From contig JAKSMC010000014.1 in assembly GCA_024400835.1 (NCBI GenBank), forward strand, positions 1-64,000: DNA of 64,000 bases, in the 5' to 3' direction. The notes under the pieces were generated by a model. It ran no database searches, was not told the origin of the DNA, and saw nothing but the letters and a program-made list of their open reading frames with translations. Origin of the DNA: Bacteroidales bacterium. Its GTDB lineage: Bacteria > Bacteroidota > Bacteroidia > Bacteroidales > WCHB1-69. Position 1 is the first letter of the stretch, and each line of letters opens with the position of its first letter. Below are positions 27,120 to 34,126 of this stretch, piece after piece. A program made the translations under genes and the position numbers.

Positions 27120-28586
27120 TTATTTCAACAGTCTGAAGAACTCGACCAAGAGGTCCCAGCACATCTGGACGGTTTTGATTTCGAGTTTTTCATCAGGAGA
27201 GTGTACGCCGCGCAAAGTCGGTCCGATGGAAACCATATCCAAGCCCGGGTACTTCTCGGAGAAGAGGCCGCATTCAAGACCGGCGTGGATAGCTAACACT
27301 TGCGGCTCTTTGTGGAAGAGGTTCTTGTAAGAATCCACCAAAACGCGGAGCACTTCGGAATCCGGATTGGGGTTCCAGCCTGGATAGCCGTCGCCGGAAA
27401 CGACATCGGCACCAATCATCCAGAATGCTGTGGAGACTTTGTCCACGATGGCATCCTTACGAGATTCCACAGAACTACGTTGGCTTGTGGTAATGGTGAT
27501 TTTGTCGTCAACTTTCTTCACGGACGCCAAGTTCGTTGAAGTTTCCACGAAGCCCGGAATATCCTGAGACATAGCGACTACGCCGTGAGGACAAACCATC
27601 AAAGCATTGAGGAGGTCGATTTGCAACATTTCCTCAAGCACTTTTTCAGCCTTGTCAGCGGGTTCCATAACGACCATAACGCCAGCATCGGTGGTGTGGA
27701 ATTCAGCTTTGTAGGTAGCATCCATTTCTGTAACATAGGCCTTCAAAGACTCCACATTGACAGCGGGGACGGCGATAACGGCAAAGCCTTCGCGGGCAAT
27801 TGCGTTACGCAAGTTGCCGGCTTGGATGTCGACCAGGCGAACACCGTAGTCGCAATAAGCATTCCAGAGTACGCGGGTGAGCAGTTTCACAGCATTGCCA
27901 CGGCCTTTGTTAATGTCATCACCGGAATGGCCGCCTTGCAAACCCTTAACCGTCACTTTGAAGAATTCATACTCGTCTTCTTCCAGATCCTTGACATTCT
28001 CATAGTCACATTCCAAGGTTGCAACCGTATCCTTACCGCCAGCGCAGCCGATGAAGAACTGACCTTCGTCTTCGGAGTCGAGGTTGATGAGCATCTTACC
28101 CGTCATAAAGCCGGGTTTGAGTTCGTTAGCACCTGTCAGGCCCGTTTCCTCATCGATGGTGAAGAGGCATTCGATCGGACCGTGTTGAAGTTCTTTGTCA
28201 TCGAGAATGGCGAGCATCATAGCCACGCCGATACCGTCATCAGCACCGAGAGTTGTGCCCTTAGCCTTCAGCCATTCGCCATCAACGTATGTTTGGATAG
28301 CATCTGTATCGAAGTTGAAATCAGTGTCATTGTTCTTTTCGCAAACCATATCCATGTGAGCTTGGAAAATCACCGGGGTGACATTTTCCTTACCCGGGGT
28401 AGCCGGTTTGGAAATCAAGACATTGCCGACATAGTCGCGCTTCGTGGGAAGGCCCATGGCAATACCTGTTTTTTCCAACCACTCAGATATCTTGGCTTCC
28501 TTCTTGGAAGGATGCGGAATCTTAGTAATCTCATTGAAGTAATAGAACACCTTTGCAGGTTTCAAATTGAGCATTTCTTCATTCAT
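27120..28586 (-). CDS. pepD: Aminoacyl-histidine dipeptidase (Xaa-His dipeptidase)
   Basis: A 488-residue M20-family zinc dipeptidase that cleaves short peptides in the cytoplasm. Metal-binding motifs are visible: FQAHMDMVCEKN (His and Asp near residue 80), TLGADDGIGVAMML (about 118), IDEETGLTGANEL (about 150; Glu-Glu pair) and LINLDSEDEG (about 173). GGHSGDDI (about 220) is typical of the PepD branch. The ATG at 28586 is chosen because the family begins with this residue and a -7 box (28623-28630) lies upstream. It fits the peptide-using lifestyle suggested by the secreted peptidases. Confidence 0.95.
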   Translation of the reverse strand: MNEEMLNLKPAKVFYYFNEITKIPHPSKKEAKISEWLEKTGIAMGLPTKRDYVGNVLISKPATPGKENVTPVIFQAHMDMVCEKNNDTDFNFDTDAIQTYVDGEWLKAKGTTLGADDGIGVAMMLAILDDKELQHGPIECLFTIDEETGLTGANELKPGFMTGKMLINLDSEDEGQFFIGCAGGKDTVATLECDYENVKDLEEDEYEFFKVTVKGLQGGHSGDDINKGRGNAVKLLTRVLWNAYCDYGVRLVDIQAGNLRNAIAREGFAVIAVPAVNVESLKAYVTEMDATYKAEFHTTDAGVMVVMEPADKAEKVLEEMLQIDLLNALMVCPHGVVAMSQDIPGFVETSTNLASVKKVDDKITITTSQRSSVESRKDAIVDKVSTAFWMIGADVVSGDGYPGWNPNPDSEVLRVLVDSYKNLFHKEPQVLAIHAGLECGLFSEKYPGLDMVSIGPTLRGVHSPDEKLEIKTVQMCWDLLVEFFRLLK

Positions 28587-28622
28587 ATCAATAAATATTA
28601 AAAGGTTAAATTTTCGAGGCCG

Positions 28623-28691: not shown

Positions 28692-28711
28692 GCACTATCG
28701 CAGTGTAGTGC
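28692..28711. promoter_or_regulatory. Inverted repeat GCACTA-N8-TAGTGC
   Basis: GCACTA (28692-28697) and TAGTGC (28706-28711) are perfect inverse complements in the gap between pepD and groES. It is not the CIRCE element, whose arms are TTAGCACTC and GAGTGCTAA. It may be an operator; weak evidence. Confidence 0.35.
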
Positions 28712-28798: not shown

Positions 28799-28823
28799 TG
28801 TCATATACTGACACAATGTCAGT
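28799..28823. promoter_or_regulatory. TGTCA/TGACA half-site cluster before groES
   Basis: TGTCA (28799-28803) and TGACA (28809-28813) form one inverted repeat with a 5-nt spacer; TGACA then pairs with TGTCA (28817-28821) over 3 nt, extended to ACTGACA/TGTCAGT. Such TGTCA palindromes are typical of sites for activators with Fis-type helix-turn-helix domains. It lies 12 bp upstream of the sigma-54 promoter, closer than most enhancers. Confidence 0.5.
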
Positions 28824-28835
28824 TTGGATTTCGTT

Positions 28836-28852
28836 TTGGCACAGATTTTGCA
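28836..28852 (+). promoter_or_regulatory. Sigma-54 type promoter of groES-groEL
   Basis: TTGGCACAGATTTTGCA matches the -24/-12 consensus TTGGCACR-N4-TTGCW at every fixed position, with the GG and GC doublets correctly spaced. The predicted transcript start is near 28862, giving a leader of about 55 nt to groES. No TAnnTTTG box is visible in this leader. Confidence 0.75.
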
Positions 28853-28916
28853 GTTCAAAGCCGCTCCAATAAGCATACAATAAATAATAATCAATAAACA
28901 ATCAAAAACTATCATC

Positions 28917-30988: not shown

Positions 30989-33900
30989 TTATTCAACAAT
31001 CAATTTTTCAAATACAGGCAGGCAGCCATCTCTAAGCACCTGGACGACATATATGCCTGCGGACAGTCCCTCAACTGAAAATTCTTCACCGTTTTTTCTA
31101 ACAGTAGATTTCACCATACGGCCCGTCATATCCACAATACGGATATTGCAAACACCATCGGCAACATTCTGTTCCTCTGACTCAATCCTCAATTTTATCG
31201 AAGTTCCGACTTTGGAAGGATTTGGAGCCACCCGTAACACCAAAGGCTTCCCATACCTAATACCATCAGAATAGGCCACATCCGAGCATAGACCGGCATT
31301 GTTTCGCGCCATCACCCCAACTCTGAGCACGCAAGGAATATCGAATGGGAGCGGTCGGTAAAAGTACTGTTGGTTGGCAGTCTGCAACCAATTGATTCTG
31401 CCTTGTGCGTCATTCATATCTTCTGTGAGGTAATAACTATAGCCACTGATTCCAGAGTTCTCATCAACCGAAGCGGTCCAATGCGCACTGACCATATTCA
31501 CATCCGTTGCCACATCTATATCGGCATTCAGTCCGTCCATCACTATCGGAGCAGTCGGAGGCGTGTAATCCACTTTGACGGATTTTTCCACCAAAGGGGA
31601 AAACACATTCGAGCCATTCAGCACAATGGATTTCAATTTACAGGTTGGTGTTTCATTCTGCGCTTGTTTTCTAATCATCTTAGTCGCGTCCTCCCCTACT
31701 GTTATCAGCTGAGATGCAGTTCTGGAGATATAACAGCGCACATTATCTATCGATACTGCACTCCCATAAGTTGCAAACCCGACGTACTGTGGCGCATTTG
31801 TTGGTAGAGCGCCAACATCACATATTGCAGCGAGCAGCGACGCATGGCGAAACACTTTGATAGATTTTCGCACACGATCCCACACTACGCGATATAGTTG
31901 TGATTGTCCCGACAAGTAGTATATCTGCTGCTGTTTTTTCAACAAAGACCTGGTCCCATTGAGAATCTTGTAAAGACATAACGAGTGTTCATCATTGTCC
32001 AGAACCATTTCATAAGCACATAGGTTCCCCGTCTGACTATTTGTGCCATTAGCATGAAAGAGGAACGAGCATTTCCCAGAGGAAGCAAATTTTACATAGA
32101 AATCATAAAGAAAGGTTTCAGCGGCATTGCCATTATGACGAGCAAAAATCATAGCATTGTCCAGGGTTGAGTTCTGCTGGCACAAAGCACCGTCAGACAC
32201 CTGCCAATGTCCGTCATTCGTCCAAATCTGGCTATCTATGGAATAATCAAAATTGTCACACAGGAAACCGCAGTTGGGATTGCTCGTCCATACATTGTTG
32301 TCTTTTTCCATAACCTGGAAAAAACGATTTTGCAAGGAGTCTCCGTTGTCAGAAAAGGCCACTGTAAAATCACGCGTTACCCAATCCTCTTCATTCCAAG
32401 AAATAGTTGTTGCAGGTCCGGTGTCATCATTTTGTTCGTCAGTTTGAGTGTTATTTTCAAAAACACCGTACCACTCGGCAGTCCATCCCTGATGCGTTGT
32501 TGTACAATCGGAACGGAATTCCACCATCATATACTCGCCGGAGGCAACCACCCTATTGGGGCTATGAGTATTCCAGCGGCCCAACAGAGGTGCAAAGACA
32601 TTGTCACCGGCATATATCCACATAAAGTCATAGTCGGTTTCCAAATCAAAGGTTGAGAACTCAAGCACCACGCTATCAGCATCAGGCACGTGTATCAGTG
32701 TCAGTTGCCGCTCGTTATCGGCATAGTTTCCAAAATCGCCCCCGGAGTCGGTAAAGGAACCTCTCAAACCTGAAACCGTACGAATCTCATCATTAGGATT
32801 CAGCAGTTTGTAATAATAGTTCCAGTTCCAATAAGGACCGGGATCCGTATGAGATTGTCCCGGATAATGCTGATGTCCACGGATTTGGGTACAGGCCCCA
32901 GTGCCGCCCAAATTATGGATACCGGCATTCAGCACCGTACCATCATCCAACGTATCGTGGCAAAAGGTCCGCTTAGTGCTGATAATCGGTCGACGTGCAC
33001 AGATATTACGCACCAAATTAGCCGACGACTGGTACATAGCCTCCGTGAACCAGCTGGCCACATTGCCGTACGCCTCATGTTCGATGCCTATAGTGTAGCC
33101 ATTCTCATTGCCCACATGCCAGGCGCGGTCGGCTTCTGACACCATCTGCGTCACCTGCCCGTCAAAAGAGCGTATGACATAGTGCGATGAGACACTGGAC
33201 TGGCAGTTTTGGAACCACGCAATAGAGCCCGCATAGGTGCCAGAGGTATAGTGGATGACCACATTTGACGGCGTCAGACTTCGTCCGGCCGCATAATTGC
33301 AAGAGGCTGCCGGGCACCATATTGCAGCCGGATAATCCAAACCATCCCCAGATTTGCCTGAGCAAGAAACATCCATAGACAGCCCGTTCTTTCGCAGCAA
33401 GTCCAAATTTCCACCAAAAAGTTCCGCAAAGTCTATTGCATAGCCCGGCGTTCCGATTTCAGCATTCGAGGTATCGGCCAAGAAACAATAGATTTCATAC
33501 AGCGAACTGTACAGAGGATACAACGTCATCGAGTTCTTAAAATCTGCCTGCACATAGGCGAACTGTCCCTCCTGATCCAACGGCACACCCAAGGGGAGTT
33601 CGGAAAGCGCGACAAAAATCGGACGATATTTTTCCATCTTATCGCCAAAACAGCCATAATATTCCTGTAATCTCGCGAAAGCTGCCGCGTACGCCAGAAC
33701 CGACAATCGGTTGTCCACAACCAAATCCATCACATCCACGCCAGACAAATCTGAGACCAGGCGCAGATTCTCACGAAAAACGCCCTTCCCATTCAACGTG
33801 AGCCCCAAAACACCATACATTTTAGGCATAGCCGAAGCATCGGTCTCCAGCGTATCCATCGGCAGACAACTATAGCGAGTATACGAATAAGCCACAGCCT

Positions 33901-34126
33901 CCAACGCACCTTTCGGCACTGATGGGTACATCTGATAAGCCTCTTCAAAATAAGGACGCACCCGTTCGTATTCATGCAAAACATTCAGACGCGCACGAGC
34001 ATCTTCATCCCTATTGATTTTCGGATAGCAATCATCAGAAAACGATAGTTGCGCCTGCAAAGAAAAGCAGCATATCACTACCATCCAAATAAGTAAAGCC
34101 GTTTTCAGTAAAGTTTGTAGTTTCAT
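30989..34126 (-). CDS. Secreted N-acetylmuramoyl-L-alanine amidase with type IX secretion tail
   Basis: A 1045-residue exported protein. In order: signal peptide (1-25, ending SLQAQ); an N-terminal helical domain (about 45-280, with QMYPSVPKGALEAVAYS); an Amidase_2 domain (about 285-440) with zinc ligands in NVVIHYTSG (His 291) and later GHQHYPGQSHTDPG, plus GIEHEAYG; a CUB-like domain (about 450-555, SFTDSGGDFGNYADNE); a large beta-sandwich region; a fibronectin-like segment (about 870-950); and a type IX secretion sorting domain (LRVAPNPSKVG, GLSAGIYVVQVLRDG). It probably cuts peptidoglycan outside the cell, either its own or that of competitors. It is transcribed from TATTTTTG at 34155-34162. 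Confidence 0.92.
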   Translation of the reverse strand: MKLQTLLKTALLIWMVVICCFSLQAQLSFSDDCYPKINRDEDARARLNVLHEYERVRPYFEEAYQMYPSVPKGALEAVAYSYTRYSCLPMDTLETDASAMPKMYGVLGLTLNGKGVFRENLRLVSDLSGVDVMDLVVDNRLSVLAYAAAFARLQEYYGCFGDKMEKYRPIFVALSELPLGVPLDQEGQFAYVQADFKNSMTLYPLYSSLYEIYCFLADTSNAEIGTPGYAIDFAELFGGNLDLLRKNGLSMDVSCSGKSGDGLDYPAAIWCPAASCNYAAGRSLTPSNVVIHYTSGTYAGSIAWFQNCQSSVSSHYVIRSFDGQVTQMVSEADRAWHVGNENGYTIGIEHEAYGNVASWFTEAMYQSSANLVRNICARRPIISTKRTFCHDTLDDGTVLNAGIHNLGGTGACTQIRGHQHYPGQSHTDPGPYWNWNYYYKLLNPNDEIRTVSGLRGSFTDSGGDFGNYADNERQLTLIHVPDADSVVLEFSTFDLETDYDFMWIYAGDNVFAPLLGRWNTHSPNRVVASGEYMMVEFRSDCTTTHQGWTAEWYGVFENNTQTDEQNDDTGPATTISWNEEDWVTRDFTVAFSDNGDSLQNRFFQVMEKDNNVWTSNPNCGFLCDNFDYSIDSQIWTNDGHWQVSDGALCQQNSTLDNAMIFARHNGNAAETFLYDFYVKFASSGKCSFLFHANGTNSQTGNLCAYEMVLDNDEHSLCLYKILNGTRSLLKKQQQIYYLSGQSQLYRVVWDRVRKSIKVFRHASLLAAICDVGALPTNAPQYVGFATYGSAVSIDNVRCYISRTASQLITVGEDATKMIRKQAQNETPTCKLKSIVLNGSNVFSPLVEKSVKVDYTPPTAPIVMDGLNADIDVATDVNMVSAHWTASVDENSGISGYSYYLTEDMNDAQGRINWLQTANQQYFYRPLPFDIPCVLRVGVMARNNAGLCSDVAYSDGIRYGKPLVLRVAPNPSKVGTSIKLRIESEEQNVADGVCNIRIVDMTGRMVKSTVRKNGEEFSVEGLSAGIYVVQVLRDGCLPVFEKLIVE

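Follow-up and report, generated by a model that had tools for sequence, protein, structure and literature searches.

Control of groESL by HrcA at a CIRCE element is common in many other phyla, and the HrcA/CIRCE and sigma-32 heat-shock systems share their target genes with the system considered here. How Bacteroidota switch on their chaperones without HrcA has so far been poorly described. The closest described case is Flavobacterium psychrophilum, in which the mapped starts of groESL, lon, dnaK, grpE-dnaJ, htpG and clpB were assigned to a sigma-54 motif, SM4 (PMC9723704). That study left the activator open and describes no palindrome in its main text, and in the same organism a sigma-54 regulator gene and lptE lie near groES (THC0290_0733, THC0290_0729) (PMC9723704). 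In addition, a 2025 matrix survey of sigma-54 regulons predicts the chaperone cluster as targets, enriched in Bacteroidota, and calls groES and grpE of B. thetaiotaomicron sigma-54-dependent, but the source cited for this statement (its reference number 80) is a Blattabacterium genome paper (PMC12316311).

The groESL locus studied here lies in a window of 64,000 nucleotides, which is the whole stretch of Bacteroidales DNA that was analysed (Table 1). Its setting resembles the SM4 regulon in the phylum, in the targets groESL, dnaK, grpE-dnaJ, htpG and clpB and in the -24/-12 promoters; however, starts were mapped in F. psychrophilum, whereas the Bacteroidales regulon is predicted from sequence, and an operator and an activator are proposed for it. 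The matrix survey differs in offering statistical enrichment by gene class, and the sections searched name neither an operator nor a chaperone activator (PMC12316311). A sequence-only reading of the window had regarded sigma-54 control of the chaperonin as a wiring different from the HrcA or sigma-32 models; sigma-54 control is supported by the present analysis, but such wiring of chaperones is not new for the phylum, for which it has already been published (PMC9723704). The part not found reported, within the open-access literature, is the assignment of the operator and the activator.

Table 1. Features of the groESL locus and of the candidate activator gene (window positions, except in the last row)
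Feature	Position	Strand	Basis
Predicted sigma-54 promoter, -24 (TTGGCAC) and -12 (TTGCA) elements, TTGGCACAGATTTTGCA	28836..28852	+	consensus match, conservation
groES, co-chaperonin, 91 aa	28917..29192	+	Pfam Cpn10, E 2e-35
groEL, chaperonin, 545 aa	29238..30875	+	Pfam Cpn60_TCP1, E 4e-83
Operator-like palindrome TGACA-N3-TGTCA	28809..28821	.	sequence; enrichment; composite scan
Perfect palindrome ACTGACACAATGTCAGT, encloses TGACA-N3-TGTCA	28807-28823		
Additional TGTCA half-site, upstream of palindrome, role uncertain	28799..28803	.	sequence
Candidate activator, AAA-HTH_8 protein, adjoins lptE	G000:C60:54965-56176		GAFTGA motif, no receiver domain

The locus has further neighbours on the - strand. 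Convergent with groEL, the interval 30989-34126 encodes a secreted-looking protein of 1045 aa with Amidase_2 (N-acetylmuramoyl-L-alanine amidase), CUB and Por_Secre_tail sorting domains. A hairpin resembling a terminator, with a T-run behind it (28692-28711), is located between groES and a divergent M20 peptidase gene (27120-28589), about 100 nt before the start of the latter.

The predicted sigma-54 promoter of groES-groEL

The element TTGGCACAGATTTTGCA lies on the + strand, 64 bp ahead of the groES ATG (28917), and it is the sole site on that strand of the window to match all 12 fixed positions of TTGGCACN5TTGCA. Its GG (28838-28839) and GC (28850-28851) doublets have 10 nt between them, which equals the -24/-12 spacing. 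When the 291-bp gap before groES was shuffled 4000 times with dinucleotides preserved, seven shuffles scored 11 and none reached 12. The exact site claimed from the sequence alone is confirmed. Across the 3.0-Mb genome, the exact core TGGCACN5TTGC occurs in eight copies, against about six by our own chance estimate; two precede heat-shock genes (groES and htpG), and the six that lie within ORFs were taken as chance matches. Because an exact core match is not rare genome-wide, it is context and conservation that carry the case for the groES promoter. Genus-mates retain the groES site within otherwise unrelated flanking DNA. The element is very probably a working sigma-54 (RpoN) promoter of groES-groEL, and from the usual 12-nt distance groES transcription would be expected to start near 28863.

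The machinery for such a promoter is encoded in the genome, which carries one intact copy of rpoN with all three sigma-54 domains (AID, CBD and DBD). Two enhancer-binding proteins are clearly recognisable, an AAA-HTH_8 protein on C60 and one of the NtrC type on C33. Control of groESL by HrcA at a CIRCE element, an arrangement generally known from many other phyla, has a practically negligible probability here: HrcA is absent from 30 of 30 genomes (this genome and 29 relatives) by a search whose control was positive in 7 of 14 named genomes, and the best CIRCE match in the 291-bp gap reaches 9/18. The earlier observation that the gap lacks both CIRCE and TAnnTTTG is likewise borne out, as no exact TAnnTTTG occurs on either strand. 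Sigma-54 control of groESL is thus supported by the intact rpoN, the two enhancer-binding proteins, the absence of HrcA, the conserved site at groES and at four other chaperone operons, and the start mapping in F. psychrophilum (PMC9723704).

Conservation of the promoter and the chaperone regulon

In this genome, corresponding sites are located 40-99 bp before the starts of grpE (TTGGCAAATTATTTGCA), dnaK (TTGGCACAATTATTGTT), htpG (TTGGCACAAAGTTTGCA; start used, MQTGNINV) and clpB (TTGGCAAAGTTGTTGTT). In the 30 genomes compared, groES has the strict core.TGGCA-N6-TTG at most 180 bp from its start in 14/20 cases, dnaK in 22/24, htpG in 23/23 and clpB in 18/23; the corresponding rates are 0.2-0.6% for shuffles and 0/15 for control promoters. 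A loose core is present in 26 of 27 grpE upstream regions, and at groES loci across the phylum it was observed in 63 of 80 against 1.7 expected. Divergent GroES-like loci (L148-L156) did not lend themselves to start calling.

Conservation of the GG/GC doublets in relatives, on which the sequence-only reading had staked its proposal, holds for TGGCA and for the G of GC, but only partly for the C. TGGCA and the -13 G are invariant in the frequency tables by construction, as these letters were required, and the fair tests of conservation are the rates against shuffles and controls, a whole-genome composite scan and the unconstrained C at -12. This C is present in 13/13 genus-mate groES sites; the order set has it at 62% of sites, and the phylum-wide groES sites, where GA is the commonest -12 doublet, at 30%. 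In relatives it is often replaced by A or T. Since a sigma-54 start has been mapped at groES in a Flavobacterium, GA/GT is read as a tolerated phylum variant.

These comparisons also bear on transcription of groESL from a primary sigma factor at a -33/-7 promoter (TAnnTTTG), with the sigma-54 match being incidental. Such a promoter could draw on the TTTTG in the -12 region and on imperfect TAnnTTTG matches (5/6) ending at 28826 and 28838; however, the gap holds no exact copy, the relatives conserve TGGCA and TTG at a fixed spacing and not TA, and the same -24/-12 element recurs at five chaperone operons, which makes this explanation very unlikely. An extra weak housekeeping start may nevertheless exist beside the sigma-54 promoter of groES. 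The prediction that groESL, grpE-dnaJ, dnaK, htpG and clpB form a regulon under sigma-54 is well supported.

A palindrome beside the promoter

Next to the groES promoter lies a palindrome, TGACA-N3-TGTCA, that was absent from the sequence-only reading. Near-exact palindromes no more than 60 bp before the -24 box were found at 6/19 groES, 5/26 grpE, 16/24 dnaK, 7/23 htpG and 15/18 clpB promoters, while about 0.1 per promoter set would be expected by chance. A near-exact palindrome is missing from several genus-mates that keep the groES promoter, and within the genus most grpE promoters are likewise without one. A search of the main texts of open-access papers yielded no mention of the palindrome.

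The combination of palindrome and -24/-12 box, defined as TGACANNNTGTCAN{9,37}TGGCANNNNNNTTG, was scanned over 60 whole Bacteroidales genomes and gave 29 matches in 24 of them, with none for the reversed control. All 29 lie 25-130 bp before chaperone genes (groES 8, clpB 9, dnaK 7, htpG 4 and grpE 1), but they are not 29 independent events, because most come from genus-mates. Two of them, at groES and htpG, belong to this genome. A further exact match to palindrome plus TGG in this genome (C39:17665, L012) was rejected, as it falls inside a 391-aa ORF. Because the layout of promoter and palindrome recurs before the main heat-shock genes, the heat-shock chaperones of this bacterial order seem to be run by sigma-54 and not by the textbook sigma-32 or HrcA.

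At groES loci across the phylum, the distance from the palindrome centre to the -24 box follows the 10.5-bp helical period (one locus per genus, n=24; R=0.92, Rayleigh p ~1e-9). All 24 centres fall at 6.5-9 modulo 10.5 bp, at distances of 18, 28-30, 38-39, 49-50, 71, 80-82, 91 and 101 bp. The phasing is weaker in the Bacteroidales five-gene set than in the phylum groES loci. In this genome, the palindromes of htpG (spacing 17) and clpB (18) keep the phase and that of dnaK (31) deviates slightly, while the groES palindrome in the window has a spacing of 21 bp and misses the phase preferred in the phylum by about 3 bp. Most sites of enhancer-binding proteins lie farther out than the centre of this palindrome, which is near -48.

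Additional half-sites accompany some of the palindromes. Upstream of groES and dnaK (L129, L143, L218-L232), extra single TGACA/TGTCA half-sites flank them, an arrangement which suggests half-site arrays instead of one dimer site. In Flavobacteriia (L058, L084, L098, L104, L110 and others), TGNCA half-sites upstream of groES overlap a hairpin with a T-run, TGCCAGCNTGTCAnnGCTGGCATTTTTT. Some palindromes of the phylum coincide in part with hairpins that resemble terminators of the upstream gene and may thus have a dual role there; the Flavobacteriia hairpin may be both the terminator of the upstream gene and an operator of groES.

A candidate activator

The likely enhancer-binding protein of these promoters would be the conserved, PspF-like C60 protein. 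It shares with PspF-type proteins an AAA domain near the N-terminus, the GAFTGA motif, a C-terminal Fis-type HTH and the lack of a receiver domain; unlike them, it is linked to lptE and groESL, and its proposed targets are cytoplasmic chaperones. Orthologs are present in 29 of 30 relatives with 51-72% identity. Among the 73 phylum loci with enough DNA, 34 carry an ortholog upstream of groES in the same orientation, its C-end 1.7-2.9 kb away. In five other families of the order, too, a gene of this type precedes groES at a short distance; in the genus of the window it is not beside groES. Furthermore, the recognition helix ISERTLYRKIKEY is nearly invariant (conservation 0.91 vs 0.43 for the linker), as expected for a constant operator.

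In the proposed mechanism, sigma-54 RNA polymerase would rest on the -24/-12 box in a closed complex, while the ATP-driven enhancer-binding protein would occupy TGACA-N3-TGTCA, either adjacent to this box or farther upstream by whole turns of the helix, and would open the complex under protein-folding stress. The C60 protein would accordingly have to bind the palindrome and to activate rather than repress, with heat or misfolded protein as the presumed signal. Judged from these sequence comparisons, an activator role of the C60 protein and an operator role of the palindrome are modestly favoured.

A less probable but serious possibility is that the sigma-54 promoter is real while the palindrome is occupied by an unrelated repressor or co-regulator, with activation coming from another enhancer-binding protein, such as the NtrC-type C33 protein, or from a distant site. 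The palindrome is near the polymerase site, as repressor operators often are, a second enhancer-binding protein is present in the genome, and several groES and grpE promoters have no palindrome. However, the helical phasing is more in keeping with contact through looped DNA than with steric blocking. In addition, the C33 protein (G000:C33:19705-20199, L122) is likely to have a separate signalling role, because it is a response regulator with a receiver domain and its gene adjoins an ORF resembling an ABC-transporter permease.

Concluding remarks

We lean towards the reading in which the master heat-shock activator of Bacteroidota is the conserved enhancer-binding protein whose gene goes with lptE and groESL. 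At sigma-54 chaperone promoters this protein would work from a TGACA-N3-TGTCA operator that lies close to the promoter and keeps helical phase, which would constitute a third wiring of the bacterial heat-shock response beside sigma-32 and HrcA. The promoter side of this wiring was known from one flavobacterium and is now extended to Bacteroidales, and candidates for the operator and for the master activator are added. If true, this would suggest why Bacteroidota keep rpoN, which would be needed for their core stress response.
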